From Anaerolineales bacterium (GTDB taxonomy: Bacteria > Chloroflexota > Anaerolineae > Anaerolineales > UBA11579), in assembly GCA_026129305.1 (NCBI GenBank), contig JAHCII010000001.1, positions 154,270-218,269 on the forward strand: 64,000 bases of DNA, in the 5' to 3' direction. A model generated the notes under the pieces. That model was not told the origin of the DNA. It ran no database searches and saw only the letters and a list, made by a program, of their open reading frames with translations. The position numbers and the translations under genes were made by a program. Shown here piece after piece: positions 32,619 through 57,246 of this stretch. Numbering within the stretch: the first letter of the stretch is position 1; the number at the start of each line of letters is the position of its first letter.

Positions 32619-32662
32619 AACAACAAAAAAGCCCCTGGCTATGCAGGGGCTTTTTTGTTGTT
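32619..32662. terminator. Bidirectional intrinsic terminator
   Basis: Perfect 19-base arms (32619-32637 and 32644-32662) surround a six-base loop. The GC core GCCCCTG is flanked by A6 and T6 runs, so it works on both strands. It serves the YtxH gene and the convergent metalloprotease gene, whose stop codon overlaps the right arm. Confidence 0.93.
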
Positions 32663-37604: not shown

Positions 37605-39445
37605 CAGCCCCAATCCTGCGGGTTGTAGTAGTGACTGGAGATGCTGGCGGTGAGCTGACGAATACGCTCGATCTCCTCAGCAGACAAGCGCTGTTTCCAG
37701 TTTTCCAGGTTGGCCGCGCTGTCCAGGCGGGTGGAATAGATCGACCGCAGGGAAACTTCCTGTGGGTTGCCAGCCTCTGTGGCCTTCAGAATACCGGCCT
37801 CAACCCGTTCTGTAAAAGGCAGTTCCATTTCATCGTATAGATCCCGGAAACGTTCTAAGGGTTGGCGCGAGAGGTCTTCATGGCGCACGATATGGATCGC
37901 CGGATGCGACTTTTGCAATTCCAGAGCCACGCTGCAGATCATGCGCCACAGCAAGCTGCCCTGGCCGACCACATCATCAGGATGCTTCAGCGAGGCTTCC
38001 ATTTCACTTCGGAAGGGTTCCAACCAATCGCGCATTAATAGCGGCTGGACCAATAGGTCGTTGAAATTGAATTGCCAGCCAAGGCGCTTTAGACTGCTCA
38101 CAAAGGCCGCTGGGTGGCGCAACACAATCACAACATGACAATCGAGGCGCCTGGCAAACCAGGCGGCAGAAAAAACGGCAAAGGGGTCCTTAAGCAGTGC
38201 ATGTTGGCGGCGCAAACGACCAGCGAGAAAGATAGCCAGGTCGCGCCCCATTCGCAGGAAGTCCTTCCCAGAACGCAGCGAGCGAATCTCTCTCCATAGA
38301 CCATAGTTCAGTTGCAGGGTCTGGCGAAATGCGGGAAGGTACGCATCTTCATTGTCTGCACAGATGTAGGTGTACCAATAGGCCACTGGGGCGCCAAATA
38401 CACCCGGGCGATGGAATACGTTGAGCGGCTCGCTGATGTAAGCCAGGCTGTTGCTTAAAGCCAACATACGCCCGACCCAGGTAGTCCCAGAGCGGTGCAA
38501 ACCCGTCACCAAGATAGGGCGTTTTTCAGATGGCGATTTTGAGGCAAAAAGAAACCCCAAACCCAGGCTTAGAGCCAGGGCATAAAGAATAGACCGCAAC
38601 CTTTCCATGGCCATCGGTGGATAATACAAGAAACTTTTAAAGTAGTTCTTGAGCGCTGGCCACCCTTGCTTGTTTTCAAGAAAATAGCGAGCAGAAAAAC
38701 GATACGCCCCTGATTTCACCAGACGGCGGTTTGCTTGTATTTTTTCCGCCAGCACAGGTTCACCCTCGGCCCAAGCCAAAATGCGCAAGGCTTCGGCGCC
38801 AAAGTGCGAGGCTTTGGCCACGTTCTTGGCCGCCGGGTGGTGGCGGGCGGCGGCCCACACCTCCGGCACGTAACGCATCGGCGCCAGGCGCGCCAGACGC
38901 AGCCACAAATGATGGTCCAGTAGATAGTTGTAGCTCAGGTCCAGCTGCCCGGCGCTGAGCTGGATGAGGCGGCGCATAAACACAGTGGGCTGGCCGATGA
39001 TGCGGAAAGAGAGCAGGTCCAGCAGGTCATAGTCACGATAGCGAATGGTGTTGAAAACGCGCCCGACCCGGTCGATCGAATGCAAATCGCTGTAGACCAT
39101 GCCCGCTTTGGGGTTGTCCTGCAAAGCCCTGACCGCTTGGGAAACTGCCCCCGGCTGATAGACATCGTCCGAATTGAGCCAGGCAATCATCTCGCCCTTG
39201 GCGCGCGCCAGGCCTTTGTTGATCGCATCAGCCTGTCCCCGGTCGCGCTCGCTGACCCACCAGGTCAGCCGGTCGGCGTATTTGCGGACGATGTCCACGC
39301 TGCCATCATCGGAGCCCCCGTCTACCACCATGTACTCGATATTGGGGTAATCCTGCCCCAACACAGAGAGGATGGTCTCCTCCAGATAGGCCGCCTGGTT
39401 GTAAGACGGAGTAATGATCGAAACCAGGGGGTTGTCGTTAGGCAT
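37604..39445 (-). CDS. GT2 glycosyltransferase - sulfotransferase fusion
   Basis: 613 residues. Residues 1-~275 are a GT2 domain ([26 protein letters not shown], catalytic LNSDDVY at 90-96). A hydrophobic stretch (~286-300) follows. Residues ~309-613 are a sulfotransferase with the PAPS loop [10 protein letters not shown] (314-323), the 3'-phosphate region [19 protein letters not shown] and [14 protein letters not shown]. The same polypeptide could add a sugar and sulfate it, or hold a sulfotransferase at the membrane next to the glycosyltransferase. The reading frame is continuous with no sign of a sequencing join. Confidence 0.88.
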
Positions 39446-42589: not shown

Positions 42590-43570
42590 TTAGGCCAGCG
42601 GGGGGTAATCCTCAGGACGCAGGCTGTCCGCCGCCAGCCCCAGGCCTTCCAGCAGATTGCGGATGGTGTTCCAATGCACCTGTTCCCAAGCGCGCGGGCT
42701 GGCATTGGAATTGTGGGCGGCCAGCAGCACGTTATCCATGGCCAGCAGTGGGCTGTCTTGCGGCAACGGCTCATGCTCAAACACATCCAAGCCGGCGCCG
42801 GCCAGCCGCCCGGCTTGCAGGGCTGCCACCAGGGCCTTCTCGTCCACCAGAGGGCCGCGGGCGGTGTTTACCAACACCGCCCCGGGCTTGACCTGAGCCA
42901 GAGTGCCAGCATTGATAATGTGCTGGCTGCTCGGATTGAGGTCGCAATTCAGGCTGATAAAGTCGGCTTCGGCCAGCAGATGCTCCAGGCTGGTCATTTG
43001 CACGGGCACGCTCTGCAGGAAATCAACGGGCATCTCAAGAACGTCATAGCCCAACAGGTGCATGCCAAAACCCTGAGCGCGACCCAGCACGGCCTTGCCG
43101 ATGCGGCCGACACCAATCACCCCCAGAGTGCATTCAGACAGCGAGCGGCCGGGCAGCTTCTCCCATTGGCCGGCTTTCATCGCCCGGTCCATCCAGGGCG
43201 ATTGGCGGGCAAAGGCGAGGATATAGCTCAGCACCGAATCGGCCACCGGCTCGGTGAAGGCGCCGGGCGTGTTGCGCACGGCAATGCCCAGCCGCGCAGC
43301 GGCGACCTGGTCGATCGAGTCGATGCCTGTGCCCCACTTGGAGATCACTTTGAGGCGCGGCGCGCAGGCAGCCAGCACTTCCGCCGTAAAGCGATCGTCG
43401 CCGCAAATGGCCCCATCGAACTGGCCGGCGTATTGCAAGATCTGCTCGGCTTCCATGCGCTCCTCGACTGGCGGGACAATCAATTCAATGCCGTAGCGGG
43501 CCAAGGCTGGGCGAAAACGCTCCACGGTGGGCAGCATGTAAGGGGCAGAAAGCATAACCGTCTTGGACAT
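42590..43570 (-). CDS. D-isomer-specific 2-hydroxyacid dehydrogenase (phosphoglycerate dehydrogenase-like)
   Basis: 326 residues. The NAD-binding motif is GVIGVGRIGKAVLGRAQGFG. The catalytic residues are Arg in NTARGPLVDE or the preceding loop, Glu in FEHEPLPQDSP and His in LLAAHNSNA. There is no C-terminal ACT regulatory domain, so it is unlikely to be the main serine-pathway enzyme. Its start directly follows the stop of the cytidylyltransferase gene, suggesting it makes or changes a 2-keto/2-hydroxy acid sugar precursor. Confidence 0.88.
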   Translation of the reverse strand: MSKTVMLSAPYMLPTVERFRPALARYGIELIVPPVEERMEAEQILQYAGQFDGAICGDDRFTAEVLAACAPRLKVISKWGTGIDSIDQVAAARLGIAVRNTPGAFTEPVADSVLSYILAFARQSPWMDRAMKAGQWEKLPGRSLSECTLGVIGVGRIGKAVLGRAQGFGMHLLGYDVLEMPVDFLQSVPVQMTSLEHLLAEADFISLNCDLNPSSQHIINAGTLAQVKPGAVLVNTARGPLVDEKALVAALQAGRLAGAGLDVFEHEPLPQDSPLLAMDNVLLAAHNSNASPRAWEQVHWNTIRNLLEGLGLAADSLRPEDYPPLA

Positions 43571-44245
43571 TTAACCTGCCTGGCGTTGGCGCATCAGAAA
43601 GTCAACCACTTGAAAGTCGAGCTCCTCATCTATATCCCAGGCTTCCGCACGCGGGATGGGGAACATCAGCGGCGCAGGGCCAATGCGATGGTCGTATTTT
43701 TCCAGGTTCTCACGCGTGAACAAATACAAACACGAATTCTCTTCATACACCGCTGGCAAATCCTGGGTGCGCAGTAATTCCCGCGGGTTGTGGTTAATGG
43801 CCGCCCCGGCGCCATCGTACAAGCGGGTTTGCAAGGCCGTAACCGTGAAGAGCGAATCTTTACTGGGGTCCGCCAAAAACGCCTGGATCGCCGCTTGAAT
43901 AGTAGCCGGCTGCAGCAGCGGATTGGTACTGTGGGTTTGCAAATACAAATCGGCCGGGACCTGTGCTGTATCGTGCAGCAGGATGGTGTTCATCGGGATT
44001 TCGCCGGCCCGCAAATGTTCGGGGCGCGTCAGCACGCGCACCGCTGGAAAGTCTTGCGACAGCCCCTGTTGGATGCTGGGGCTGTCTGTGTCCACCACCA
44101 CTTCACTGATCTGCGGGCAGGCCAACAAAGCTTCGATGATGTAATGGAACAGAGGTCGCCCAGCCAGCAGGCGATAGTTCTTGGCCGGCACGCGTTCCGA
44201 ATGTTCGCGCATGGGCACCAAAGCCACGATGCGGGGAGCCGTCAT
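43571..44245 (-). CDS. Acylneuraminate cytidylyltransferase-family protein
   Basis: 224 residues. The CTP-binding N-terminus is ALVPMREHSERVPAKNYRLL, a variant of the PARGGSKxxPxKN motif with Met-Arg-Glu-His in place of the Gly-rich loop. QTHSTNPLLQPATIQAA and the late PRAEAWDIDEELDF match the NeuA/KdsB family. It would activate a sugar acid as CMP derivative; it is distinct from the NeuA-HAD fusion at 53423. It is followed by two dehydrogenases in the same unit. Confidence 0.87.
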   Translation of the reverse strand: MTAPRIVALVPMREHSERVPAKNYRLLAGRPLFHYIIEALLACPQISEVVVDTDSPSIQQGLSQDFPAVRVLTRPEHLRAGEIPMNTILLHDTAQVPADLYLQTHSTNPLLQPATIQAAIQAFLADPSKDSLFTVTALQTRLYDGAGAAINHNPRELLRTQDLPAVYEENSCLYLFTRENLEKYDHRIGPAPLMFPIPRAEAWDIDEELDFQVVDFLMRQRQAG

Positions 44246-45222
44246 CAGCGCACGCTCGCCGGGTTTTCGCCGCGCCGGTCAGCAGCTCTGGCCCCACTTG
44301 TAGATTTTTTCTCCAAAGCACTGGGCGGATAATAGAAGACCTGCTGCAAAGCTGGGCTGGGGGTCAGGGGCCCGCGGTAACCGCGATAGGTGCCCCAGTA
44401 TTGCAGAAAACGAAAAGTGATAATGCCGCCCAGCTCGCGCAGCAGCACGCCCTGGCGCAGGGCGGCTTCCAGATCGGAGAAAACGCTGCGCACGAACAGG
44501 CTGAGCATATTGCCCAAACTAAAGCGGCTCTTGGGCAGGATCTGGCGCAGGGCCAGCGCCTCGCGGCGGTGTCGGTTAATTACCTGCGCCGGGCTCTCGT
44601 CATGCAGGTGCGCCACACCGGCCTCAGCTACATAGGCGATCTTGTAACCCTGCTCGCGCAAGGCTGAGGACCAAGCGATATCTTCCAGGCCAGTCAAGTG
44701 CTCATCATATGGCTGCGCTTTCCAAACAGACAGGCGCAAAGCCAGATTGGCGTTGTTGCAAAATGGGCTGGGCTGGTCCAGGTCGGTCTCTTCAGGAAAC
44801 CATTTGATGAAATGTTGGCCTTCGGAGAACTTGGTGCCTTCGCCGCCGCGTTGTTTTCCATAAGCAATCGCCACCACTGGATCGTCGAAAGGCGCAATCA
44901 AGTTGGCCAGCCATTCAGGACTGAGCGGCAGCACATGGGCGCTGGCTAGCACGGCGAATTCGCCGCGCGCTGCAGCCAGGCCCATATTCAGCGAACGGCC
45001 AAATGTGAAATCGCTCGGCTGGATGTGCAGGACGCGCACCGGATAACGCGCCGCAATCTCCAGCGTGGCGTCTGTGGAGCCAGAGTCGACCAGGATGATC
45101 TCGTAATCACGGAAACTTTGCTGCTCGATGGCCGCTAATAGATTGCCAAGATGCTTTTGCTCATTGAACGCCCGGATCACAAAGGACACGCGGGGATTCT
45201 TGGCGTTTGCAGGGGGCTGCAT
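44245..45222 (-). CDS. GT2 glycosyltransferase
   Basis: 325 residues. GT-A markers are VSFVIRAFNEQKHLGNLL, LVDSGSTDATLEIA and, in place of a plain DxD, LASAHVLPLSPEWL. The acceptor-side block TGLEDIAWSSALREQGY is typical of rhamnosyl/galactosyl-transferase-like GT2 enzymes. The C-terminus contains a hydrophobic patch that may touch the membrane. It shares one base with the cytidylyltransferase start. Confidence 0.85.
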   Translation of the reverse strand: MQPPANAKNPRVSFVIRAFNEQKHLGNLLAAIEQQSFRDYEIILVDSGSTDATLEIAARYPVRVLHIQPSDFTFGRSLNMGLAAARGEFAVLASAHVLPLSPEWLANLIAPFDDPVVAIAYGKQRGGEGTKFSEGQHFIKWFPEETDLDQPSPFCNNANLALRLSVWKAQPYDEHLTGLEDIAWSSALREQGYKIAYVAEAGVAHLHDESPAQVINRHRREALALRQILPKSRFSLGNMLSLFVRSVFSDLEAALRQGVLLRELGGIITFRFLQYWGTYRGYRGPLTPSPALQQVFYYPPSALEKKSTSGARAADRRGENPASVR

Positions 45223-45231
45223 GGCCGAATC

Positions 45232-46092
45232 TTACCAGTTCTGGTCTTTTTCGTACCCCAGGCGCTGCAACAGATCGCCAGTAACGGTTTTAAAGAGCTT
45301 TTTGTGAGCGGGGGTAAAGTGTTTCTTCCAGCCGCCTGAACGACCGCTGCGAAACGTAGGCGAATCTTCGGGCTGGATGGCGCGAGCAAGCACCTTCAGG
45401 CCGTTCTCCCGGCTGGAGCGGGTCTGAAAACCGCGCTGCAACGTGTAGTCCCAAATAAGACCCAGCTGGCCAAGAGTATCCTGCAAAAGGTCTTCGTAGC
45501 GCAGACTCAGCACGGCGGGCTGTTCCAACCAGCCCAGATAAGGTTCAAAGCGGGCGCGCACATCCGGAAAGGGTACTTCCAACTCTGGGCGACCGAGGAT
45601 ACTAACCTCGAGACGCTGATCAAAGCTTTTGAGTTGATGCATGTAGTACTCGTGGTGTACGTGCCGGCTGCTGATATCCGTGACATAAAAGACATGTGAG
45701 ACGACCACATCGCGCGGGTCCCGGTAAATAAAATATGCGGCCGCACCCGGTGAAGCAAGTTTGGATACCAACTGCGGCAAAGCATGCAAATGGCCATAGC
45801 CAATATCGCCGGGCTGCAAACGTTCTAAGTCAGCCAGAATGGCGTTCAGCGGCCGGGGTTGGCCGCTGGCGCCTTCAAAGGTCAGCACTGGCGGCATGCC
45901 GCTCGCTGCTACCGGTCCCAAACCAGAAAAACCGGCCAGGATTTGCGTCAGCAGGTGGGTTCCGCTCTTGGGGAAGGAATTGCCAAAAAGCCAGGGCATC
46001 TGTCCAATGGGCAGGCCCGCAAAGCGGGCCTGGGCCAACCAGCGGCGCAAGCGGCGCCGGGCCAGGCGGGCGGTGAAAGCGGGGCTTACCAT
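45232..46092 (-). CDS. Sulfotransferase, tandem copy A
   Basis: 286 residues. The PAPS loop is GNSFPKSGTHLLTQIL, the 3'-phosphate region YFIYRDPRDVVVSHVFYV, and LRYEDLLQDTLGQL is also present. The C-terminus FKTVTGDLLQRLGYEKDQNW is nearly identical to the next gene upstream (46086-46949), so the pair arose by tandem duplication. The whole fold is conserved, so both are likely active, perhaps on different positions of one glycan. It overlaps copy B by seven bases. Confidence 0.88.
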   Translation of the reverse strand: MVSPAFTARLARRRLRRWLAQARFAGLPIGQMPWLFGNSFPKSGTHLLTQILAGFSGLGPVAASGMPPVLTFEGASGQPRPLNAILADLERLQPGDIGYGHLHALPQLVSKLASPGAAAYFIYRDPRDVVVSHVFYVTDISSRHVHHEYYMHQLKSFDQRLEVSILGRPELEVPFPDVRARFEPYLGWLEQPAVLSLRYEDLLQDTLGQLGLIWDYTLQRGFQTRSSRENGLKVLARAIQPEDSPTFRSGRSGGWKKHFTPAHKKLFKTVTGDLLQRLGYEKDQNW

Positions 46093-46949
46093 TTGCGGTC
46101 TCGTTCGTACCCCAGACGCTGCAACAGGTCACCAGTGACCGTTTTGAAGTTTTGCTTGTTGGCTTCGGTGAAATGCTCGCTCCATTCGCCCGGTTGGCCG
46201 CGCCGGAACGTGCCCGAGGCACGCGGTTTGACCGCCGCGGTCAAAACATCAATGGCTTGTTGGCGTGGGGCCAGCGGAGTGAAGCCGTGCTCCGCCAAGT
46301 GGTCCAGCACACGGCCCAGGGCGGCGGGACGCTCCAGAATCAGGTCTTCAAACCGCAAGCTGCATACTGCCGGCTGCTGCAGCCAACCCAGGTAGTGCTC
46401 GTATTTAGCGGTGATCGATGAAAGCCGGGCAGTGTCCGTGTGCACCCCTTGAATGGCGGCATTGATGCGCTCTTCCACGCTGGAGAGTTCCTGGTTGTAG
46501 TATTCGTGCATGCTATGGCCCGCGTGCATTTGCGTGGCGTAAAAAACCTGTGAGACGATCACGTCACGCGGGTCGCGGTAAACAAAGAAAGCCGCAACGC
46601 CCGGTCGGGTTAGCTCTTCAATATAGGGATCACGCGCATGCAAATAACAGTAAGCAATATCGCCCGGCCCCAGCCGGCGCAGGTTGGCGACCACCTGCAC
46701 CTGCGGCAGGTTGTGGTTGGCCGCTGAACGGCTGAGCGGCGGCATGCCGGGGTCCACAAAGGGGCCAAGCTCCGTGAGGCCGTTAAGGATCTGGATCAGC
46801 AAGTGCGAGCCGGACTTGGGCATGGCGTTGCCCACCACGGCCGGGACCGACTGCGCCTGCTGCCGGCCCCAGCGCCGAGCGGCCTGCGCCCGGCGCCACT
46901 GCCAGCGCGCCTGTTTGAACGGCGTCTTAAGTGCAGTCAGCAGGCTCAT
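46086..46949 (-). CDS. Sulfotransferase, tandem copy B
   Basis: 287 residues. The PAPS loop is GNAMPKSGSHLLIQIL and the 3'-phosphate region FFVYRDPRDVIVSQVFYA; LRFEDLILERPAAL and FKTVTGDLLQRLGYERDRKW match copy A. The middle of the proteins, where acceptors bind, differs most. It overlaps the aminopeptidase gene by four bases (ATGA), so it is in one operon with the aminoacylation cassette. Confidence 0.88.
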   Translation of the reverse strand: MSLLTALKTPFKQARWQWRRAQAARRWGRQQAQSVPAVVGNAMPKSGSHLLIQILNGLTELGPFVDPGMPPLSRSAANHNLPQVQVVANLRRLGPGDIAYCYLHARDPYIEELTRPGVAAFFVYRDPRDVIVSQVFYATQMHAGHSMHEYYNQELSSVEERINAAIQGVHTDTARLSSITAKYEHYLGWLQQPAVCSLRFEDLILERPAALGRVLDHLAEHGFTPLAPRQQAIDVLTAAVKPRASGTFRRGQPGEWSEHFTEANKQNFKTVTGDLLQRLGYERDRKW

Positions 46950-48268
46950 GCAGCTCCCAGGTGCGGGTCGCTGGGTTGCGGCCGATCGCTAAGCGAGACC
47001 AGGCCCTTTTCAAGCAACGGATCCACCACCTCCATCACCTGCTCCAGACTGCAATCCAGCTCCAGGGCAATATCGGCAGCGCTGCGCGTCCCGTCAATGC
47101 GATCCATAATGCGAAAGTGGCGGCGGTGGCCCTCCGGGTCTTGGCGATAGTCCACCCACAGCCCAAAGCCGGAGGCAAAGATCTCACCTTTGTAGTGGTT
47201 GACCAGGTAGCGCGTCTGGTCAAAGGCGGCCAGCAATGCCAGCACCAGATCACGCGAAGCTTCCAGCCTTGGCTGTGAGACGATCTCTGGGTTGTCCAGA
47301 TCGGAGTGATATTGTGGATAAGGATAGAAGCGCGATGCGGGCAGCTGCGGGTCCACCACCCGTGAGAGCGAGAGCATGGGTACCCGTACGCCAGGCGCAT
47401 TGAATTGGCGCTCGTCATTGTCAATGATGGTGCGCATGGCGCCCACATAGGCCTCGGGCTCGCGTTGACGCAGCGCCAGCACCAGAGCGCCGTCGGCCGG
47501 GCTGTGGGCCTGGTGGGAGAGCTGTAAGCTATGCGGCGCATCGTTGCCCAGCATCTCCAAGAACAGCCCGCCGCGCATCTGCGCGATCAAAGGCTCATGC
47601 TGGCTGAGGTAAGCGATGGACCCCTGAGTTTCGGGAAAGACCAGGAAGCGCACGCCGTAGTGCGGCCTGGGACCGGCCAGCACGGTGCGCATCACGTCCA
47701 ACCCGACCACCACCCCGCTGAGATCATCGTTAACCTGCGCTGGGTGGTCTAGATGGGCAGCCAGCACAAAGCAATCCTCAACTTCACCGGGCACAAAGAC
47801 CTCGCCGATCTTAAGCGTGCCGGCTTCAAAGCGAGCCGCGATCTTCACCCGGTAGCTTTCTTGGTCCAGGCTGTCGATTAAAGTCTTGGGCGCACACAGG
47901 CCCCAATCACGCTGGTAATACTTGAAGACAAAGGGAGTAGCCTGCGCCAGGTGAGGATGGCTGTGCAAATGTTTGAGCAGTTCCTGGCGGCTGACTTCGC
48001 CCTCAAACGGTAGCGAGTACGAAACCACGTGCAGGGGACTGTCGGCCAGGTCGATCAAGCGGCGGCCGTCCAGGGTCTCCAAATAAGCTTCGTCACAACT
48101 CCATTTTTCTGGCACGGTCCAGGTCCAGATCTTGGTTCCGCTGGGCACTTCGTGGATGGTCATGGGCACTTCTTCGGCCAGGCGCGCCAGAGCGGCATCG
48201 TAGCCGTCCGAGACCAGATGGCGCGGTAGCCGCCACAGCTCCTCAATGAGCTCCAGCATGCTGCTCAT
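46946..48268 (-). CDS. DUF4910-type zinc aminopeptidase (M28-like)
   Basis: 440 residues from ATG 48268, which has GGAGG upstream; the open frame to 48394 runs into the neighbour and lacks conservation. The M28-like metal site is intact by eye: LAAHLDHPAQ (His, Asp), NDDLSGVV (Asp), FPETQGS (Glu) and QYHSDLDNP (His). A winged-helix-like C-terminus (~375-430) follows. Relatives are found in polysaccharide and natural-product clusters with unclear substrates. Next to an aminoacyl-carrier system, it may remove or trim amino-acyl groups. Confidence 0.85.
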   Translation of the reverse strand: MSSMLELIEELWRLPRHLVSDGYDAALARLAEEVPMTIHEVPSGTKIWTWTVPEKWSCDEAYLETLDGRRLIDLADSPLHVVSYSLPFEGEVSRQELLKHLHSHPHLAQATPFVFKYYQRDWGLCAPKTLIDSLDQESYRVKIAARFEAGTLKIGEVFVPGEVEDCFVLAAHLDHPAQVNDDLSGVVVGLDVMRTVLAGPRPHYGVRFLVFPETQGSIAYLSQHEPLIAQMRGGLFLEMLGNDAPHSLQLSHQAHSPADGALVLALRQREPEAYVGAMRTIIDNDERQFNAPGVRVPMLSLSRVVDPQLPASRFYPYPQYHSDLDNPEIVSQPRLEASRDLVLALLAAFDQTRYLVNHYKGEIFASGFGLWVDYRQDPEGHRRHFRIMDRIDGTRSAADIALELDCSLEQVMEVVDPLLEKGLVSLSDRPQPSDPHLGAA

Positions 48269-49035
48269 GCAACCTCCGGGCGGTTGGCCACCAAGGCCCA
48301 GGGGTCGGCGGCCAGCAGTGCATCCGTGGCAGTCACAAAGTCCGTCAGGCGGCAGGCGGCTACCTGCCCAAAGTGCAAGGGAGTTTGGCGCCATTGCCCG
48401 GCAGCTTGTAATGCTTCTTGAATCGGGGCCAGGCGCAGCTGGGGCTGGTACTGCTCATCCCGCACGAACATCAAATATTTCTTGGGCAGCCACTGCCCGC
48501 CAAGGTGCACGCGGGCATGAAAGTCTTTCCAATAGCGATACGGCACATTGGCGCGCTGTTCGCTGTAATGCACCATGGAGGCAGCTTGAATGTCAGCGCC
48601 TAGCAGCAGAAGTTTGAAGTCCAACTGCAGCATGCCTTCAAAGGCCGAGCCCTGATCAAAGGCGGAGCAGGTATCCGGCACGGCCAGCGCTTTGGCATGT
48701 TTCCCCAGCAAAGCCAGCGATTGCATGGGGTGGGTGGTGCGCAGGACCTTGGGTTGTGTGCGCACGAATTCAGAGAAGGCGCCCATACCTTGCGAAGGAG
48801 TGGCGTAAGGGTCATAGTCTTCGCCGCGGGCGAAGGCGAAATTAAAAGTCGGCACGGCCAGGGTGCCTTCCTCGCCAATCAGCTCACGCAGCGTGGCCAG
48901 CACCATTTCGAGCCCGCCCTGGGGGCGACCCAGCGGGTGCAAAGCTGAGTGCACCAGCAGGCCGTCGCCCGCTTGCACGCCGACGGTCTGTAAAGCCTGG
49001 CCCAATGCATCCACGGTCAGTTCCGGCAGCGGCAT
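48265..49035 (-). CDS. AAC(3)-family N-acetyltransferase
   Basis: 256 residues. Conserved blocks are LLVHSALHPLGRPQGG, GTLAVPTFNFAF, FSEFVRTQPKVLRTTHPMQS (with the family's SxHP-like core changed to THPM) and LLLGADIQAASMVHYSEQ. Although the family is named for aminoglycoside resistance, members in glycan loci acylate amino sugars. Here it lies between GNAT and aminopeptidase genes, so acylation of an amino group on the glycan is the likely role. Confidence 0.85.
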   Translation of the reverse strand: MPLPELTVDALGQALQTVGVQAGDGLLVHSALHPLGRPQGGLEMVLATLRELIGEEGTLAVPTFNFAFARGEDYDPYATPSQGMGAFSEFVRTQPKVLRTTHPMQSLALLGKHAKALAVPDTCSAFDQGSAFEGMLQLDFKLLLLGADIQAASMVHYSEQRANVPYRYWKDFHARVHLGGQWLPKKYLMFVRDEQYQPQLRLAPIQEALQAAGQWRQTPLHFGQVAACRLTDFVTATDALLAADPWALVANRPEVA

Positions 49036-49036
49036 G

Positions 49037-49507
49037 TTACAGCACCTTGCGCACCAGGGTCAGGTCAGTGGCAAAGCCCTGCTTGTGCCAAAAATCCAAC
49101 CCAGCCTGGTTGCCCACCTGCACCTGCACTTCCACAGAATGCAGGCCCAATTCACGGAATTTCTGCAAAGCCGTTTCGGTCAACTGCGCGCCCAAGCCGG
49201 AGCCGCGCAGTGATTCGTCTACATACAAATCGCTGATCTCGCCCACTTGCACAGCGCCCAAAAAGGCGGCGCTCTGCTTCACACGCGCCAGCAAAAAGGC
49301 GCCGGGCTGCCCCACAGGCCCGGCCACCCATAAAAAGCTAAAACGGCCCAAGCTGCGCTGAAAACTGCCAAGCCATTTCTCGGCCGCGTCCTCGGGCAGG
49401 GGAAAAGCCAACCCCAGGCTATGATGGAAGTGCTGCAAGCGCAGCCAGGCCGCCGCGGCCGCGGGCAGGTCGGCTTCTTCGGCGGAGCGCACCGGCCAAT
49501 CAGCCAT
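49037..49507 (-). CDS. GNAT-family acyltransferase
   Basis: 156 residues from ATG 49507, overlapping the previous gene by eight bases. The acetyl-CoA site is ISDLYVDESLRGSGLGAQL (RGSGLG as the R/QxxGxG/A motif). Fold ends with GLDFWHKQGFATD. It could use acetyl-CoA or, given the neighbours, move the aminoacyl group from the carrier protein to a sugar amine. That second role is inference from order only. Confidence 0.85.
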   Translation of the reverse strand: MADWPVRSAEEADLPAAAAAWLRLQHFHHSLGLAFPLPEDAAEKWLGSFQRSLGRFSFLWVAGPVGQPGAFLLARVKQSAAFLGAVQVGEISDLYVDESLRGSGLGAQLTETALQKFRELGLHSVEVQVQVGNQAGLDFWHKQGFATDLTLVRKVL

Positions 49508-50690
49508 GCAATGCCTCGCGCACCAGCGCCGGCCAGGCTGCGGGCTCCAGTCCATATTGGCTCAGGAAGGCATAAGCCAGGCGCTCAAGACCGAAAGCGA
49601 CACAGCCGGTGTGGGCAGGCTTGCCATCGGGCAGGGTGATGTTGAGGTGGCGGCCAAAGAAGTCCTGATGGTAATTGTAGGAACCCACCGCCAGCGAGCT
49701 GTCTTTGAACGGCAGTCGGGCGCGGATTTCATATTTGAGTTGAAAGGCGTTCTGGAAGGCGGCTTGCTTGCGGAACTCACCGACGAAAAAGGGGTCGTTG
49801 GCGCTCTCGACCAGGTAAGCCAGACCGATCTGTTCCAGGTAGGCGGCGACTTTCTGGCGGCCGCGCTCACGGTTCTCCAGCACGAAGTCGGCCGGGCCGA
49901 CGAAGATGATCTCGCGCATGGTGAAATCCCACAAGCGTTCCAGGGTGTTCAAGTTACTGGACTCGTAGCGGAAGCAGTGCCCCACCGCGGTGGCAGTCAG
50001 CTGGCCGCCGGGCAGCGGTCTGTCTGCCAGGGCAAAATAGTAGTGGTAGCACACCGCCGGGGAGAGCAGCGCCTGGATCTTGGAGAAAGCCTCTGGGGGC
50101 GCATTGAGACCAGTCTCTTCATAATGCGTGTGCTCGGCAAAGTCATTGATCACATGCAGGTCTTCACGCAGGTGCGTAGCAAAGGTCAACGAGTGGGGAA
50201 AAGCGCGGAAATACTTGACCCGATCCAGCTTCTCCGCGGAGATCAAGGTCGGAAAACGCTGCGGAGCGGCCTCAAATTCAGCGGCCAGGCGCACAAAATA
50301 GCGCTCAAAGACTTCGATCAGGCGCGTGACCAGTGGCCCCAACGAGTAAATGCCGGTGTGCTCGCGGCTCACTTCAGCGCGCGCCAACAGCTCAGGCATC
50401 GGGTCGGTGGCATACGGCACCGGGCGGGCCATGTGGTCTTCCAATATCTCTACCTTGGGGGGCAAGGCGCCGCTGGCCATATCCGCCACCACTTGCTGCA
50501 CCTTGGCCTCGAGTGCGCTCAATACCTTAGCGCTCAAGCTGCTGCGCAGCTGCAGTTGGACGCTGTCGCCGTCAGGCGCGATCTGCGCAGCTTCGATCGC
50601 CTCATCGACATAAGCCAATTTGGACTGCACTTGGCCCACCAAGTGGCTGGGAATGATTACCTGCAGTGCGAAGCGGTGTTCAGCCGCCAT
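49500..50690 (-). CDS. Amino acid:[carrier protein] ligase (class II aaRS-like)
   Basis: 396 residues. The N-terminal ~95 are small alpha/beta; the remainder is a class II aminoacyl-tRNA-synthetase core close to the atypical (zinc) seryl-tRNA synthetase. Motif 2 is CFRYE (239-243), motif 3 is GLERLAY (367-373). Candidate zinc ligands are Cys214, Glu260 and Cys363, the Cys/Glu/Cys set of that subgroup. There is no tRNA-binding domain. Known relatives load Gly or Ala onto the phosphopantetheine of a small carrier protein, and such a carrier is encoded next door with an 11-base overlap. Confidence 0.85.
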   Translation of the reverse strand: MAAEHRFALQVIIPSHLVGQVQSKLAYVDEAIEAAQIAPDGDSVQLQLRSSLSAKVLSALEAKVQQVVADMASGALPPKVEILEDHMARPVPYATDPMPELLARAEVSREHTGIYSLGPLVTRLIEVFERYFVRLAAEFEAAPQRFPTLISAEKLDRVKYFRAFPHSLTFATHLREDLHVINDFAEHTHYEETGLNAPPEAFSKIQALLSPAVCYHYYFALADRPLPGGQLTATAVGHCFRYESSNLNTLERLWDFTMREIIFVGPADFVLENRERGRQKVAAYLEQIGLAYLVESANDPFFVGEFRKQAAFQNAFQLKYEIRARLPFKDSSLAVGSYNYHQDFFGRHLNITLPDGKPAHTGCVAFGLERLAYAFLSQYGLEPAAWPALVREALHG

Positions 50691-50940
50691 TCGGCAACCC
50701 TTCTACATAGGCCAGGATCAGGGTCAGGCTGGTCAGCCCGCCAATCGTCTCTGCGGTGATTTGCACCCCATAGCGAGCTTCCAAAGCCAGCATCAGATCC
50801 ATATGTGCCATCGAATCCCATTGAGGCAACTCCCCCAATTGGGCATCCGCGCTGATCTCAGTCAAATCCACACGGAAAGTTTCGGCCAGCAAGGCACGCA
50901 ATTCATCCATCAAGGGGGTGTCCGTTATATCAGTGCTCAT
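50680..50940 (-). CDS. Acyl-carrier-like protein (aminoacyl carrier)
   Basis: 86 residues of four-helix carrier protein. The phosphopantetheine serine is Ser43 in WDSMAHMDLM. ALEARYGVQITAETIGGLTS matches helices 2-3. It would need a phosphopantetheinyl transferase, which is not in the window. It is the expected partner of the downstream aa:CP ligase; start and end coordinates make the two translationally coupled. Confidence 0.88.
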   Translation of the reverse strand: MSTDITDTPLMDELRALLAETFRVDLTEISADAQLGELPQWDSMAHMDLMLALEARYGVQITAETIGGLTSLTLILAYVEGLPNGG

Positions 50941-50949
50941 TTGGCAGTC

Positions 50950-52530
50950 TTATACCAGAAAAGGCCCGTCGTTTACCACGCCGTCGAGAACGGCCTGCAC
51001 CGCCGCTGAGTTTTCCGGCCGCAAAGCCTCTGCGGGGAAATCTTTGAAATGCACCAGACCCTTGGTAGTGTGCGGATACAGAAAATCGCCAAAGGGCAGC
51101 GCCGTCCGATACAGCTGGTAATACAACACCCGGCGCGCTTCGCTGACCATTTCAGCCGGCTGCGTCACGCTCTCAGCGGCCAGGAACTGATTCACCTGGT
51201 CCAAATATTCACCGGCAGACGCGGGATAGAAAACGGTCTTGTACTGGGTATAGCGCGCCGCCCCGGCGCTCAACACCGGTTTGCCCAAAATAGAAGCTTC
51301 CAGGCCAATAGAGGAGTTGTAGACCATCACAAAATGCGAACGCTGGATGAGCGCATAAGAGCTGAGGTACTCGGTGGCATCCACAAAAATCACATTGGGC
51401 AATTCAGCCACACGGTTGGCCTGCACCCACTCAGCCACGCTCTCGCGGCTCTTCTTCTTGCTGTTGGGGCGCATTTCATCCGGATGGGCGCGGATGACAA
51501 ACAATGTGTCTTGATGCTGGCGGATGATGGGCAGCAGGGCATCCAACCAGGCAAACATGTGGGCAAAGCGGGTATTGGCATGCACCTGGCTGGTATCAAA
51601 GATAACGTTGGTGAATATGGGTACGATGTGTTTGAACTGGGCGGCCATGCCTAGAAAAGCATCACCCAACTCTTGCATCTGCGGCCAAAACTGCACGCCC
51701 GCCATGCTAAAACGCCCCTGGAAGCGATTGCCCAGGTATTCATCCAACTGAGCATTTTGGGCACCATCCAGCTGGAAGTCAGCGGGAATATCCATAGGGT
51801 ACGCGGTAGCCTCTCCCTCAGTGAAAAAGGCGGTGAAGGGTCGCAAGCCAACTTCATGGGTGATGGTGCGCAGGCCGCGCCGCCGGGCGGCCAGGGCGGC
51901 GGTCGCCTCGGGGAACATGATGCCGTTGAAGAGCACGACCGCTTTGGGCTGCACCGCATCCAGCATCTGCTCAAATTCCTGGGCTACGTTGTATGCCGAG
52001 AGGATGTACTGCCGGAAGAAGATGCGTGTCTGCTTGTCATCTTCCAAGTGGTGGCGGCGCAGCGCCCAGCGCAAGCTGGGCAGCACCAGCTGGCCCAGCG
52101 GCCAGCCTTGGTAGTTGTACTCCGCCAGCTGCGCCAAATCCATGCCCTGAATAGCCGCCCCTATTTCAGCCCGCTCCTCAAAGCCAAACCAGCGCGTCTC
52201 CGCATCGGCATACAGGTGGCGGGACAATGCTATGCATTGGTCGCATTCGGGCTCTTCGTTGGGATCCAGCGCATTGGTGCCCAGCACGCAGCGGCGCATG
52301 CCGCTGTGGCAAACAAAATGTACAATGCGCACCCCGGCCAAACGCAGTCCCCAGGCCGACAAGATGGAGAAGGCCGCATTCTGACTAATGAAGCCCATAC
52401 GCGCTGAGGCGTTAAAAAACACCACTGCGGGGCCTTGCGGCTCCGCCTTGGTGGCCGTGCCCCGGGCAATGCGCCGGGCGCGGTAGGTGCTTAGCAGATT
52501 GCGCAGCTTGGAGGAGATGCGTGCAAACAA
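50950..52530 (-). CDS. Capsule-polysaccharide-type glycosyltransferase, unknown specificity
   Basis: 526 residues. No membrane helices. The N-terminal half (ARMGFISQNAAFSILSAWG) and central PKAVVLFNGIMFPEATAALA are in the style of GT-B surface-glycan enzymes. The C-terminal half has FVIRAHPDE and MVYNSSIGLEASILGKPVL, the donor-site block of capsule_synth/KpsS-like and CDP-glycerol-transferase-like families. It lies between the carrier protein and neuB, so it may attach the nonulosonate or its neighbour. Confidence 0.75.
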   Translation of the reverse strand: MFARISSKLRNLLSTYRARRIARGTATKAEPQGPAVVFFNASARMGFISQNAAFSILSAWGLRLAGVRIVHFVCHSGMRRCVLGTNALDPNEEPECDQCIALSRHLYADAETRWFGFEERAEIGAAIQGMDLAQLAEYNYQGWPLGQLVLPSLRWALRRHHLEDDKQTRIFFRQYILSAYNVAQEFEQMLDAVQPKAVVLFNGIMFPEATAALAARRRGLRTITHEVGLRPFTAFFTEGEATAYPMDIPADFQLDGAQNAQLDEYLGNRFQGRFSMAGVQFWPQMQELGDAFLGMAAQFKHIVPIFTNVIFDTSQVHANTRFAHMFAWLDALLPIIRQHQDTLFVIRAHPDEMRPNSKKKSRESVAEWVQANRVAELPNVIFVDATEYLSSYALIQRSHFVMVYNSSIGLEASILGKPVLSAGAARYTQYKTVFYPASAGEYLDQVNQFLAAESVTQPAEMVSEARRVLYYQLYRTALPFGDFLYPHTTKGLVHFKDFPAEALRPENSAAVQAVLDGVVNDGPFLV

Positions 52531-52553: not shown

Positions 52554-53426
52554 CTATTGCACGCGGCGCATCTTTTTCAGCGAAGGCAATTCGCTGTCAT
52601 AGACGCGCTTCTTTCCGTCTCCCAGAGACTGCTCGGTCACCCGGATGTATTTGACCAGTTTCTGCAGACCGCCCGGTTCCACAGAGGCGGCCTGGTCAGT
52701 GCCCCACATGGCCCGGTCCAGGGTGATGTGACGCTCGACCAAGCAGGCACCCATGGCTACGGCCACGGCGGAGGTCACCAGGCCGACTTCATGGCCGGAA
52801 TAGCCCACCGGACAGGGATATTGTTCCTGCAATGTCTGGATCATGCGCAGGTTGAGCTCTTCCGGCTCGCAAGGGTAGGTGCTGGTGGTGTGGGTCAGTA
52901 CCAGATTGTCAGTATCCACCACATCCACCGAGGCCTTGATCTGCTCATCGGTCGACATACCGGTGGACAGGATAATTGGGCGGCCGGTCTTCTTGAGCTT
53001 GCGCAGCATTTCGTGGTCGGTCATGGCGGCGGAGGGCACTTTGTAGCACGGTGTGTCAAAGGCCTCCATAAAATCGATCGATTCCAAATCCCACACCGAG
53101 ACAAACCAGTCCATGCCTTTTTGCTTGCAGTGGGCATCAATCTCACGATAAGCCGCCTCGTCAAACTCCACTTTGTAGCGATAATCTAAGTAAGTAATGT
53201 AACCCCAAGGAGTCTCACGCATCTTATCGCGCTGGTCGGGAGGCGTGGCCAATTCCGGAGTGCGCTTTTGGAACTTGACTGCGTCGGCGCCGGCCCACTT
53301 GGCCAGGTCAATCAGCTGCTTAGCGACGTCAATATCGCCGTTGTGGTTAATGCCAATCTCGCCGATGATATAAGCAGGGTGACCATCGCCGACCATGCGC
53401 TTACCAAGCTGAATTTCACGCTTCAT
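52554..53426 (-). CDS. NeuB-family nonulosonate synthase without SAF domain
   Basis: 290 residues. TIM-barrel blocks are YIIGEIGINHNGDIDVAK, AVKFQKRTP, YKVPSAAMTD, ILSTGMSTDEQI, VGYSGHEVGL and VERHITLDRAMWGTDQAAS. They condense PEP with an N-acyl sugar to a nine-carbon acid (sialic, legionaminic or a related acid). Ordinary NeuB proteins are ~340-350 residues and end in an antifreeze-like SAF domain; this one stops after the barrel. It overlaps the NeuA-HAD gene by four bases. Confidence 0.88.
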   Translation of the reverse strand: MKREIQLGKRMVGDGHPAYIIGEIGINHNGDIDVAKQLIDLAKWAGADAVKFQKRTPELATPPDQRDKMRETPWGYITYLDYRYKVEFDEAAYREIDAHCKQKGMDWFVSVWDLESIDFMEAFDTPCYKVPSAAMTDHEMLRKLKKTGRPIILSTGMSTDEQIKASVDVVDTDNLVLTHTTSTYPCEPEELNLRMIQTLQEQYPCPVGYSGHEVGLVTSAVAVAMGACLVERHITLDRAMWGTDQAASVEPGGLQKLVKYIRVTEQSLGDGKKRVYDSELPSLKKMRRVQ

Positions 53427-54658
53427 CTGTTCTCCTTGGGGAGGTTCTCTAGAATTAAATCACAAAGCTCGCGGACTGCGCCGCGACCGCCAGGGTAGAT
53501 CAAAACCCTGTCTGCCTGGCGCAATACGGCTGGATGGGAGTCGCCCACCGCCACGGCGCAACCCACCAGAGGGAAGCAGGGCAGGTCGTTGGTGTCATTG
53601 CCAATATAAACCGTGTTTTCGGCCGCGATCTGTTTTTCAGCCAATATCTTCTTTAACAAAGTAGCTTTATCTTCAATGCCTTGATAATACTCAATGCCCA
53701 ACTTTTCACAGCGGCGCGCCACCACCGGGTTGGTCTCCATCGACATTACCAGGGTCTGCACCCCTGCTTTGCGCAATTGCAGCAAGCCCAGCCCATCGCC
53801 CCGGTTGGCGGCCACTTGTTCGCGGCCATCCTGATCCACCCAGACACGGTTGTCGGTCATCACGCCGTCGAAGTCCAGCACCAGCAAGCGCACCTCGGCG
53901 GGCAGCGGCCGCCGAGAGGCTCCGGGCCAGACCAGGTCCAATTCGCCTGAGGCGGCCAGCCACTCTGCCCGCTTCCAATCGTTGTGGGTATCAATATCCA
54001 CTGCATAGCGGGGGTCAATGTGCACCGGCCAGATCGACGCGCCGCTCATACTGCCTTTCAAAATCGTCGCCGCCCGAATGGCATCCACATGTCCGGTCTG
54101 CCAGTAGGCCGGCGGCAAGACCTGGCGGGGCGAGTTGTAAGGCTCCGGATTGCCATCCAAAGTCAGCAGGGGCTGCAACGCCTCGCCTTCGGTTACCCGC
54201 CACATCTTGTAAGGATTTTGGCCAGAGGGTACTACGCCGCGCACGGAATCGGCAGATGGGTGGTTGAGCAGAATCTCCACAGCTTCATCCACCAGGCCGT
54301 GCGGCCGCACCGGAGAGGTGGGGCGCAGCTGCACCACGATCTGAGGATGGTAGTCTTCGTTCTCCGCCAGCCAGCCCAAAGCATGCTGGAAGACTGGCAA
54401 ATCTTGAGTGCTGTCCTGAGCGAATTCAGCCGGGCGCAAGAAGGGTGCTTCGGCCCCATATTGGCGAACCAGCTCAGCCATTTCGGCATCGTCGGTGGAA
54501 ATGATGGTGCGGGTCACGCGCTGGGCTTGCACTCCGGCGGCGACACTATAGGCCAATAAAGGATGTCCCAGAAAGGGGAGTGCATTTTTACGCGGAATGC
54601 TCTTGGAGCCGCCGCGGGCGGGGATGATCGCCAGAACTTCCGGCTTCTTGGCACTCAC
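53423..54658 (-). CDS. CMP-nonulosonate synthetase - HAD phosphatase fusion
   Basis: 411 residues. Residues 1-~230 are the cytidylyltransferase (AIIPARGGSKSIPRKNALPF, QLRPTSPVRPHGL, PRYAVDIDTHNDW). Residues ~250-411 are a KdsC/KDO8P-phosphatase-like HAD domain (LLVLDFDGVMTDNRVW, VMSMETNPVVARR, YIGNDTNDLPCF). The HAD half would remove the 9-phosphate left by a NeuB acting on a 6-phosphate sugar, then the NeuA half activates the product. It pairs with neuB directly downstream and an SDR upstream. Confidence 0.9.
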   Translation of the reverse strand: MSAKKPEVLAIIPARGGSKSIPRKNALPFLGHPLLAYSVAAGVQAQRVTRTIISTDDAEMAELVRQYGAEAPFLRPAEFAQDSTQDLPVFQHALGWLAENEDYHPQIVVQLRPTSPVRPHGLVDEAVEILLNHPSADSVRGVVPSGQNPYKMWRVTEGEALQPLLTLDGNPEPYNSPRQVLPPAYWQTGHVDAIRAATILKGSMSGASIWPVHIDPRYAVDIDTHNDWKRAEWLAASGELDLVWPGASRRPLPAEVRLLVLDFDGVMTDNRVWVDQDGREQVAANRGDGLGLLQLRKAGVQTLVMSMETNPVVARRCEKLGIEYYQGIEDKATLLKKILAEKQIAAENTVYIGNDTNDLPCFPLVGCAVAVGDSHPAVLRQADRVLIYPGGRGAVRELCDLILENLPKENR

Positions 54659-55473
54659 CAGGCAGTCCAGCCCCCGTCCACGACCAGATTGGCGCCCGTC
54701 ATGTAGCTGGAAGCATCCGAGGCTAGGAAGAGCAGCGCGCCATTCATCTCATCCGGCTGGGCCATGCGCCCCAGAACTGTACGGGCAGAGTATTGCTGCA
54801 CAAAATGCTCGTCATGTCCGTTGAATACGCCCCCCGGTGTGAGGGCGTTCACGCGAAGGTTTTTGTCACCGTAATAGGTGGCCAGGTACTTGGTCAGCCC
54901 TAAAATGCCCGCTTTGGTGACGGTGTAATCCACCGGTTTGTACTGGGCAGGCTGACCCGGGCGTTGGTACAGACGTTGGTCTGGCCCGCCCAGGCCATAG
55001 GTGGAGCAGATATTGATAATCACACCGTGACCCTGAGAGAGCATGTACGCCACTGCGGCTTGCGAGCACAGGAAGGCGCCGGTCAAGTTAACTTTCAGTG
55101 CGGCTTCCCAGGTTTCCAACGCATAGTCTTCAAAGGCGCTGCTGTGTTTGCCCGCGCCGGATTCGTCGAACTTGGGATCCAGGGCGGCGCTGTTGACCAA
55201 GATGTCCAGGCTGCCGAACTGCTCGGCCGCGGCAGCAGCCATCGCCCGGGCAGAATCAGCCTGGCCCACGTCCGTTTGGTGGGCCGCCGCCCGCCCGCCG
55301 GCAGCGCGGATGCCCTCGACCACCGCTTCAGCAGCGCCCAGGTCCATGTCCGCCACCAGCACCGCCGCCCCGGCGGCGGCCAGGGTTTGGCAAAACTGGC
55401 GGCCAAGCAAGCCCGCGCCGCCGGTAACTACGGCAGCGCGGGCAGTCAGGTCAAAAGAAGGGAGTGCGGACAT
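54655..55473 (-). CDS. Short-chain dehydrogenase/reductase (PtmA-like context)
   Basis: 272 residues from ATG 55473; a TTG three codons upstream is less likely. SDR motifs are AVVTGGAGLLGRQF, VNSAALDPKF, Ser in NICSTYGLG and YTVTK. The C-terminus MTGANLVVDGGWTAW is normal. An SDR beside NeuB and NeuA recalls PtmA of legionaminic-acid pathways, which is why a sugar precursor is likely the substrate. It overlaps the NeuA-HAD gene by four bases. Confidence 0.87.
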   Translation of the reverse strand: MSALPSFDLTARAAVVTGGAGLLGRQFCQTLAAAGAAVLVADMDLGAAEAVVEGIRAAGGRAAAHQTDVGQADSARAMAAAAAEQFGSLDILVNSAALDPKFDESGAGKHSSAFEDYALETWEAALKVNLTGAFLCSQAAVAYMLSQGHGVIINICSTYGLGGPDQRLYQRPGQPAQYKPVDYTVTKAGILGLTKYLATYYGDKNLRVNALTPGGVFNGHDEHFVQQYSARTVLGRMAQPDEMNGALLFLASDASSYMTGANLVVDGGWTAW

Positions 55474-55503
55474 GGTGGGCAACGGGCTGCCCTGGTGTGC
55501 AGC

Positions 55504-57246
<1,743 letters not shown>

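Follow-up and report, generated by a model that had tools for sequence, protein, structure and literature searches.

A class II synthetase-like ligase and its carrier protein in a nonulosonate island of Anaerolineales: a candidate module for the aminoacylation of surface glycans

Introduction

The amino acid:carrier-protein ligases raise a recurrent question: Where does the amino acid go once it has been loaded? Its destination is largely unknown so far, and the locus described here, which places such a ligase in the midst of genes for a nonulosonate-containing, sulfated glycan, may supply a function. The reading that we favor, at a probability of roughly 60%, is that the ligase belongs to a decoration module for this surface glycan, in which an amino acid would pass from the ligase to a carrier protein, then to an acyltransferase of AAC(3) type and finally to a sugar.

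The Cassette and Its Genomic Setting

The cassette lies at positions 46946-50940 of the window (the whole stretch of 64,000 nucleotides analyzed) in an Anaerolineales genome, and consists of five genes arranged head to tail on the minus strand. The first encodes an acyl or aminoacyl carrier protein of 86 aa (ACP, 50680..50940; PP-binding Pfam match of 28.8 bits, above cut-off) and is followed by the class II aminoacyl-tRNA synthetase-like ligase of 396 aa (49500..50690), a GNAT acyltransferase (49037..49555; Acetyltransf_1, 2.9e-13), an AAC(3)-type or Antibiotic_NAT acyltransferase (48265..49035; Pfam, 1.4e-37) and a DUF4910/DUF2172 metalloprotein resembling M28 peptidases (46946..48394; Pfam DUF4910, 1.2e-57). 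Matches in Pfam, NCBIfam and PDB back all five assignments, and the reading frames, their order and their common strand agree with the original prediction. Translational coupling is apparent in the overlap between the ACP stop and the ligase start, while the AAC(3) stop and the DUF4910 start share an ATGA (gcATGAgc). The DUF4910 frame probably starts at codon 43 (48268), giving a protein of ~440 aa instead of the 482 listed, and for the GNAT a start near 49507 is likely.

On the same strand, the genes around the cassette form the nonulosonate and sulfated-glycan island that had been predicted. Upstream lie, first and closest to the cassette, a Capsule_synth/epimerase-like protein of glycosyltransferase type (50950..52530; Pfam Capsule_synth, 3.1e-7), then a NeuB-type nonulosonate synthase in a short form without SAF domain (52554..53426; Pfam NeuB, 4.4e-78), a CMP-sugar synthetase with a fused HAD domain resembling KdsC/KDN-9-phosphatase (53423..54658; CTP_transf_3, 4.8e-17, plus HAD matches), a short-chain dehydrogenase (54655..55482; adh_short_C2, 6.9e-47) and a bifunctional ATP sulfurylase/APS kinase for PAPS supply (55504..57246; ATP-sulfurylase, 1.7e-82, APS_kinase, 2.4e-64). 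Downstream follow two sulfotransferases (46086-46949 and 45232-46092; Sulfotransfer_1, 4.2e-10 and 5.1e-11) and then, by Pfam, a GT2 glycosyltransferase, a second CMP-sugar synthetase and a 2-hydroxyacid dehydrogenase (42590..45222). The combination of NeuB with CMP-sugar synthetase identifies a nonulosonate biosynthesis locus, in which NeuB scores below the cut-offs for both NnaB and PseI. A phosphopantetheinyl transferase is encoded in the genome. Since the island contains no DegT aminotransferase, the two of the genome lying at 14649-15773 of the window and ~33 kb beyond its end, the acceptor amine is unaccounted for, a point against the favored reading.

The Ligase and Its Carrier Protein

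The ligase has a class II core homologous to that of Bll0957 and atypical SerRS, and both its top solved match (PDB 3mey/4h2s, E=2e-43; profile E=2.5e-60) and its top fold (AF2 model of pLDDT 87.5; Foldseek match to 4h2s_B, E=1.6e-23) are the glycine:[carrier protein] ligase of Bradyrhizobium. Its landmarks comprise the Cys/Glu/Cys zinc site (C214, E260 and C363) and the arginines of class II motif 2 (CFRYE, 239-243) and motif 3 (GLERLAY, 367-373). C214/E260/C363, R241/E243 and E369/R370 are invariant in all 53 sequences compared, C214, E260, C363, R241 and R370 having been checked also against the 3mey alignment. In the carrier, the phosphopantetheine site is Ser43 within WDS43M, and W41-D42-S43 is conserved without exception in the 41 ligase-linked ACPs. 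The zinc, ATP-motif and serine residues of the predicted pair are therefore intact. Because the ligase reaches only 179.5 bits against the curated cut-off of 357 bits for the NCBIfam equivalog NF005479, we file it as a divergent relative, not as a member of that equivalog.

Could the protein be a tRNA synthetase instead? It carries an extra N-terminal domain of ~85 aa and no counterpart of the large N-terminal domain with which SerRS of methanogen type binds tRNA, the profile alignment to SerRS running from ~residue 141 on. On account of this absence, the ACP encoded next door and the separate canonical SerRS in the genome, we reject a tRNA synthetase. In all likelihood, the ligase charges the adjoining small carrier protein with an amino acid.

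Recurrence of the Block in Chloroflexota

The same arrangement recurs in 41 Chloroflexota loci of public genomes and hence is not due to chance. In the loci where each partner could be tested, the ligase is accompanied by an adjacent ACP (39/39), an AAC(3) protein (31/31) and a DUF4910 protein (27/27), with the Capsule_synth/epimerase-like protein nearby in 31 of 33 loci. NeuB lies upstream in 24 of 28, and 20 of the 21 testable genomes have it no farther than ~5 kb from the ligase, so that the search for the cassette next to neuB elsewhere, which had been proposed, succeeded in many genomes. Relatives possess the same NeuB island without the ACP/ligase/AAC(3)/DUF4910 block; in these empty sites the island genes that flank the block on both sides run contiguous, and the GT2, second CMP-sugar synthetase and 2-hydroxyacid dehydrogenase genes are kept. 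The block is therefore a discrete, optional module. It is not a fixed unit of five genes, given that the GNAT is dispensable and comes in two subtypes, and the type of DUF4910 protein can be swapped.

The Transferase Accompanying the Ligase

The AAC(3) protein belongs to its superfamily by Pfam score (PF02522, 130 bits, above cut-off) and by its catalytic His and Glu, with His156, Glu159 and His102 invariant in 39 of 39 sequences. Its closest solved relative is FrbF (PDB 3sma), and it falls under every NCBIfam cut-off for AAC(3), hence it is not an AAC(3) resistance equivalog. In the phylogenetic tree, the AAC(3) proteins linked to the ligase (40 rows) form their own deep clade, separated with a support of 100 from the clade lacking the ligase (7 rows). 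The AAC(3) protein has thus diverged along with its association to the ligase, in line with the predicted specificity of the acyltransferase, and this pattern points to a changed acyl donor in the ligase-linked clade.

The most serious alternative, which we regard as unlikely, is that ACP, ligase and GNAT together make an aminoacyl donor which the GNAT itself transfers, while AAC(3) and DUF4910 constitute an unrelated pair using acetyl-CoA for N-acetylation or processing along the nonulosonate route. Relatives indeed have AAC(3)-DUF4910 pairs adjoining NeuB without ligase or ACP, so that AAC(3) could use acetyl-CoA in the cassette as well; moreover, in three Acidobacteriota genomes the GNAT directly follows the ligase and no AAC(3) is seen there. 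However, the GNAT is present in 31 of 35 testable loci and missing from five ligase loci overall (L040, L041, L043, L048 and L051), whereas AAC(3) is never absent. There the ligase is followed by AAC(3) and no GNAT is present, which makes AAC(3) the minimal partner of the ligase. The interchangeability of the two GNAT subtypes, the deep clade of ligase-linked AAC(3) and the presence of an MBOAT as alternative transferase in Acidobacteriota also argue against a transfer by the GNAT.

Related Ligases in Other Settings

Outside Chloroflexota, Acidobacteriota present an independent glycan setting with the order MBOAT-ACP-ligase-GNAT, and Lindowbacteria have ligase and ACP alongside sugar genes. 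Other related ligases have no glycan context: They occur with ACP and acyl-CoA dehydrogenase genes in Azospirillum and Priestia (in the order ACP-acyl-CoA dehydrogenase-ligase), with PKS/NRPS genes in Streptomyces, with NRPS genes in Amycolatopsis and with AurF and thioester-reductase-like genes in Acidobacteriota. The original prediction held that a cassette found away from glycan genes would speak against it; bare ligase-ACP pairs do lie beside NRPS/PKS or acyl-CoA dehydrogenase genes, but the five-gene cassette was not seen in such surroundings. These neighborhoods of acyl-CoA dehydrogenase, AurF and NRPS genes lend some credit to the notion that the carrier-bound amino acid is the precursor of a small secreted metabolite, its location in a glycan island being incidental. 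We hold this to be improbable, as the same glycan setting is kept in 41 Chloroflexota loci, neither an acyl-CoA dehydrogenase gene nor one for condensation or reduction was found in the cassette, and the island genes bordering the block at either end directly adjoin each other in relatives with the empty site.

The DUF4910 Protein

The fifth protein matches PF16254 and PF09940 above cut-off (195 and 90.9 bits) and PDB 3k9t with E=7.7e-52, which places it in the DUF4910 (CA_C2195) family. It keeps H217, D223 and H363, the three ligands of a single zinc, but where M28 peptidases have their catalytic Asp and Glu it carries Ala219 and Pro254, respectively; neither catalytic residue occurs at its column in any of the 36 DUF4910 sequences. 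On the strength of these replacements we reject an active aminopeptidase, and the name originally given to the gene is wrong in the catalytic sense. The proposal that its product trims the amino acid likewise lacks support, considering also the AAC(3)-DUF4910 pairs found next to NeuB where ligase and ACP are lacking. The least probable alternative of all is that the DUF4910 protein is the transacylase through which the carrier-bound amino acid reaches the amino sugar, a role tentatively suggested for CA_C2195 by Das et al. 2014 (PMC4000134), with AAC(3) and GNAT adding only acetyl groups: Its conserved zinc site and almost constant adjacency to AAC(3) are compatible with this role, yet it occurs next to NeuB just as well where neither ACP nor ligase is close (a motif scan of the DUF4910 loci without ligase retrieved no ACP), and in three ligase loci the DUF4910 protein is of a very different type. 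It is therefore not tied to the ligase in the way that AAC(3) is.

Proposed Pathway

Under the favored decoration pathway, the ligase would use ATP to activate an amino acid as aminoacyl-AMP, possibly glycine or alanine if its solved relative is a guide, and would then move the aminoacyl group onto the phosphopantetheine arm of the carrier encoded next to it. The GNAT, where present, may acetylate the alpha-amino group of the bound amino acid (cf. Leg5Ac7AcAla). AAC(3) of the ligase-linked clade would next take the aminoacyl or N-acetylaminoacyl group off the carrier and attach it, through an amine or hydroxyl, to one of the cytoplasmic sugars in the pathway, either before or after CMP activation, while the DUF4910 protein may act on the same sugar or linkage, other than as a classical peptidase. 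Because the conserved module links the ligase to a single acyltransferase clade and a single glycan island, the fate of the loaded amino acid can be addressed directly with no more than four or five small genes. The module would also provide a concrete role that can be annotated in many uncultured Anaerolineales.

Comparison with Known Systems

The closest known proteins are the amino acid:[carrier protein] ligases typified by Bradyrhizobium Bll0957 (PDB 3mey, 4h2s; Mocibob 2010, 2013, as reported via PMC9437257). The present ligase shares with them a class II core akin to that of SerRS of methanogen type, the zinc site, motifs 2 and 3 and a separate small carrier encoded nearby; it differs in having ~31% identity, the additional N-terminal domain and a score below the equivalog cut-off. 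Moreover, it has no acyl-CoA dehydrogenase partner and sits with AAC(3) and DUF4910 in a nonulosonate and sulfated-glycan island. We found no amino acid:carrier-protein ligase assigned to a glycan pathway in the open-access literature.

The CA_C2195 clusters (PMC4000134) combine a DUF4910-DUF2172 protein that likewise lacks the M28 catalytic residues with NeuB, CMP-sugar synthetase, ACP, N-acetyltransferases and an aminoacyl ligase, just as the present locus does. The ligase of Clostridium is of ATP-grasp type, whereas ours is of class II synthetase type and has an AAC(3) clade specific to it. As to the product, an alanyl-carrying legionaminic acid, Leg5Ac7AcAla, exists in Vibrio vulnificus, and is the kind of compound that the cassette is predicted to make; PMC7371886 names this product, not its charging enzyme. 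The AAC(3) protein shares the Antibiotic_NAT fold and the conserved His and Glu with FrbF and the aminoglycoside acetyltransferases (PDB 3sma and others), from which it is set apart by its low NCBIfam scores and by the proposed donor, an aminoacyl-ACP.

Carrier-based aminoacylation of surface glycans without tRNA is already known from Dlt, which D-alanylates teichoic acids, and from AlmEFG, which adds glycine to the lipid A of Vibrio cholerae (PMC3783018). To call the cassette a tRNA-free, ribosome-free route for surface glycans, as the original prediction did, therefore overstates its novelty, which is limited to the charging enzyme, the type of transferase and the likely acceptor: in essence, a charger of class II synthetase type and a predicted acceptor from the nonulosonate island. 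By analogy, the cassette would work like Dlt and AlmEFG, activating an amino acid, loading a carrier and modifying a surface glycan, without being a member of either system. If so, it would add a third, synthetase-derived chemistry to the carrier-based aminoacylation of cell surfaces. More tentatively, and with somewhat less than even odds, it may represent an overlooked general class present in several phyla (Chloroflexota, Acidobacteriota and perhaps Lindowbacteria and Myxococcota), where the core of a former class II synthetase has replaced the adenylation enzyme of Dlt and Alm, in combination with interchangeable transferases (AAC(3), MBOAT, hexapeptide or GNAT). Dlt and AlmEFG contrast with the cassette as follows: Its charger is a class II synthetase relative and not an NRPS-type adenylation protein such as DltA or AlmE; by Pfam, the cassette in the window has no membrane acyltransferase of MBOAT or LPLAT type, an MBOAT being present in the Acidobacteriota versions; and instead of MBOAT/DltD or LPLAT, the proposed transferase is a soluble protein of AAC(3) type, with a cytoplasmic sugar as the predicted acceptor.

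The Cassette and Its Glycan Island

In this segment, which comes from contig 1 of the genome of an Anaerolineales bacterium (Chloroflexota), all five open reading frames of the original prediction were found where it had placed them, at 46946-50940; they lie on the minus strand. They are translationally coupled, the stop of AAC(3) and the start of DUF4910 having ATGA in common, and belong by Pfam and NCBIfam to the families PP-binding (the carrier protein, ACP), class II aminoacyl-tRNA synthetase core/amino acid:carrier protein (aa:CP) ligase, GNAT, Antibiotic_NAT (AAC(3)) and DUF4910+DUF2172. The cassette is flanked by NeuB, a CMP-sugar synthetase fused with a KdsC/KDN-9-phosphatase-like HAD (CMPsyn/HAD, 53423-54658), a second CMP-sugar synthetase (CMPsyn2, within 42590-45222), a Capsule_synth-type protein (GT50950, 50950-52530), PAPS synthase, sulfotransferases, glycosyltransferases and dehydrogenases, neighbors which bear out the glycan setting claimed for it. 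The CMPsyn/HAD fusion suggests a 9-phosphate nonulosonate route.

Another single frame joins a GT2 glycosyltransferase with a sulfotransferase domain (37604-39445). A protein of 663 aa that carries an InhA-like MAM domain (32661-34652), encoded at the island's far end, is a candidate surface protein. The island continues beyond the window (L086, G000:C1:218270-238269) with a second, longer NeuB-type frame found by profile search and, judging from translations, SpsF-, dehydratase- and RmlD-like genes and a Wzm/Wzt-like ABC transporter pair. NeuB-type proteins of about 640 aa also occur at L054:5095-7014 and L072:5690-7600; the former combines NeuB, SAF and a xylose-isomerase-like TIM barrel (Pfam), the latter two of which are absent from the window NeuB (52554-53426).

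A Probable Carrier Protein Ligase

The closest solved relative of the ligase is the glycine:[carrier protein] ligase of Bradyrhizobium (3mey/4h2s, E=2e-43; profile 2.5e-60), and its AlphaFold2 model (pLDDT 87.5, pTM 0.85) finds as top fold match 4h2s_B (E=1.6e-23), the same enzyme in complex with its carrier protein. Residues C214, E260 and C363 line up with the Cys/Glu/Cys of the Bradyrhizobium enzyme and, together with the motif 2 and 3 residues, are invariant in 53/53 homologues. In profile comparison with methanogen-type SerRS, homology begins only past the large N-terminal domain of SerRS; the genome separately encodes a canonical SerRS, and elsewhere a phosphopantetheinyl transferase. 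Since the ligase scores under the curated NCBIfam equivalog cut-off, it is called a divergent relative with an extra N-terminal domain.

Distribution and the Empty Site

Within the genus set, 10 of 11 genomes have the ligase, as do 22/61 relatives; NeuB occurs in 48/61 of these relatives, with or without ligase. Across the phylum the ligase was found in only 10 of 400 sampled genomes, some as distant homologues. Over 41 Chloroflexota ligase loci, each gene being scored only where the flank sufficed, ACP (39/39), AAC(3) (31/31) and DUF4910 (27/27) always accompany the ligase, GNAT (31/35) and NeuB (24/28) less constantly. Measured by coordinates, the distance between NeuB and ligase stays within about 5 kb in 20 of 21 testable genomes; in the other it is about 12 kb. 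Ligases of NeuB islands form one clade (99/99), with deeper branches weakly supported.

Five loci (L146, L147, L148, L151, L152) keep CMPsyn/HAD-NeuB-GT50950 without the cassette block, four of them with an SDR upstream; the downstream CMPsyn2/2HADH/MAF genes are kept wherever the contig extends far enough, and the slot of the missing block holds other genes, for example a methyltransferase. Because relatives thus have the same NeuB island without it, the block is an optional decoration outside core sugar synthesis.

Which Enzyme Follows the Ligase

In several relatives an AAC(3)-DUF4910 pair adjoins NeuB where ACP and ligase were not detected; loci of this kind are L122, L124, L125, L126, L128 and L131, mostly beside NeuB. 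The pair is an older two-gene unit of nonulosonate loci. In the AAC(3) tree, a ligase-linked clade (n=40) is parted from a no-ligase clade (n=7) by a branch with support of 100, whereas DUF4910 has no matching split, three ligase loci having a different DUF4910 type. Judged by this division according to ligase presence, AAC(3), not the metalloprotein DUF4910, is the enzyme that tracks the ligase. Aligned to 3k9t (CA_C2195), DUF4910 keeps all three zinc ligands (H217, D223, H363) but has Ala219 and Pro254 at the positions of the catalytic Asp and Glu of M28 peptidases, a family feature according to Das et al. (PMC4000134), who suggested that such proteins take part in building modified polysaccharides, perhaps by moving an acyl group onto an amino sugar (transacylation).

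The zinc of aa:CP ligases binds the amino group of the substrate, so N-acetylation would come after loading. The ligase would charge ACP; GNAT, at loci having one, may cap the amine; AAC(3) would then transfer the acyl group carried on the pantetheine arm to a sugar. AAC(3) rather than GNAT is taken as the putative transferase, since no locus with sufficient flank lacks it and since in five loci it comes after the ligase without any GNAT. It is established that aa:CP ligases charge carriers with Gly or Ala (PMC9437257), and Leg5Ac7AcAla, mentioned in PMC7371886, is a known product of the predicted kind. No DegT aminotransferase was found inside the island, which leaves the predicted acceptor amine unaccounted for; the linkage is possibly an ester.

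Other Settings and Known Systems

Elsewhere the ligase keeps varied company. Lindowbacteria offer another sugar setting, ligase-ACP-formyltransferase with nucleotide-sugar genes; at L085:9935-15417, nucleotidyltransferase, GHMP kinase and RmlC type genes follow. In Myxococcota and Acidobacteriota, ACP-ligase is followed by hexapeptide transferases, and a third Acidobacteriota genome, besides the two described below, has ligase-GNAT at a contig edge. Nonglycan settings comprise NRPS in Amycolatopsis, PKS/NRPS on a Streptomyces plasmid, ACP-acyl-CoA dehydrogenase-ligase in Azospirillum and Priestia, and, in Acidobacteriota, ligase with AurF and thioester-reductase-like genes. Short ligase-like genes with a thioester-reductase-like gene occur at L142, L143 and L144, with an AurF-type N-oxygenase in two, possibly a small-molecule pathway of Acidobacteriota.

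Two Acidobacteriota genomes have the order MBOAT-ACP-ligase-GNAT (L074:8499-11720, L078:8540-11669), their MBOATs sharing 40% identity; glycosyltransferases surround the first set, and about 3 kb from the second there is a polysaccharide protein of the Wzz/GNVR type. This layout resembles Dlt, with a synthetase relative standing where Dlt has its adenylation enzyme. The Clostridium cluster of CA_C2195 contains NeuB and ACP, as the island in the window does, but its aminoacyl ligase is an ATP-grasp enzyme (PMC4000134). Carrier protein aminoacylation of surface glycans is already established in Dlt and AlmEFG (PMC3783018), and the literature reachable by search yielded no report of a nonulosonate island that pairs a charger derived from a synthetase with a transferase of the AAC(3) type. 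As far as that literature extends, it is this predicted combination that would be new relative to Dlt and AlmEFG.
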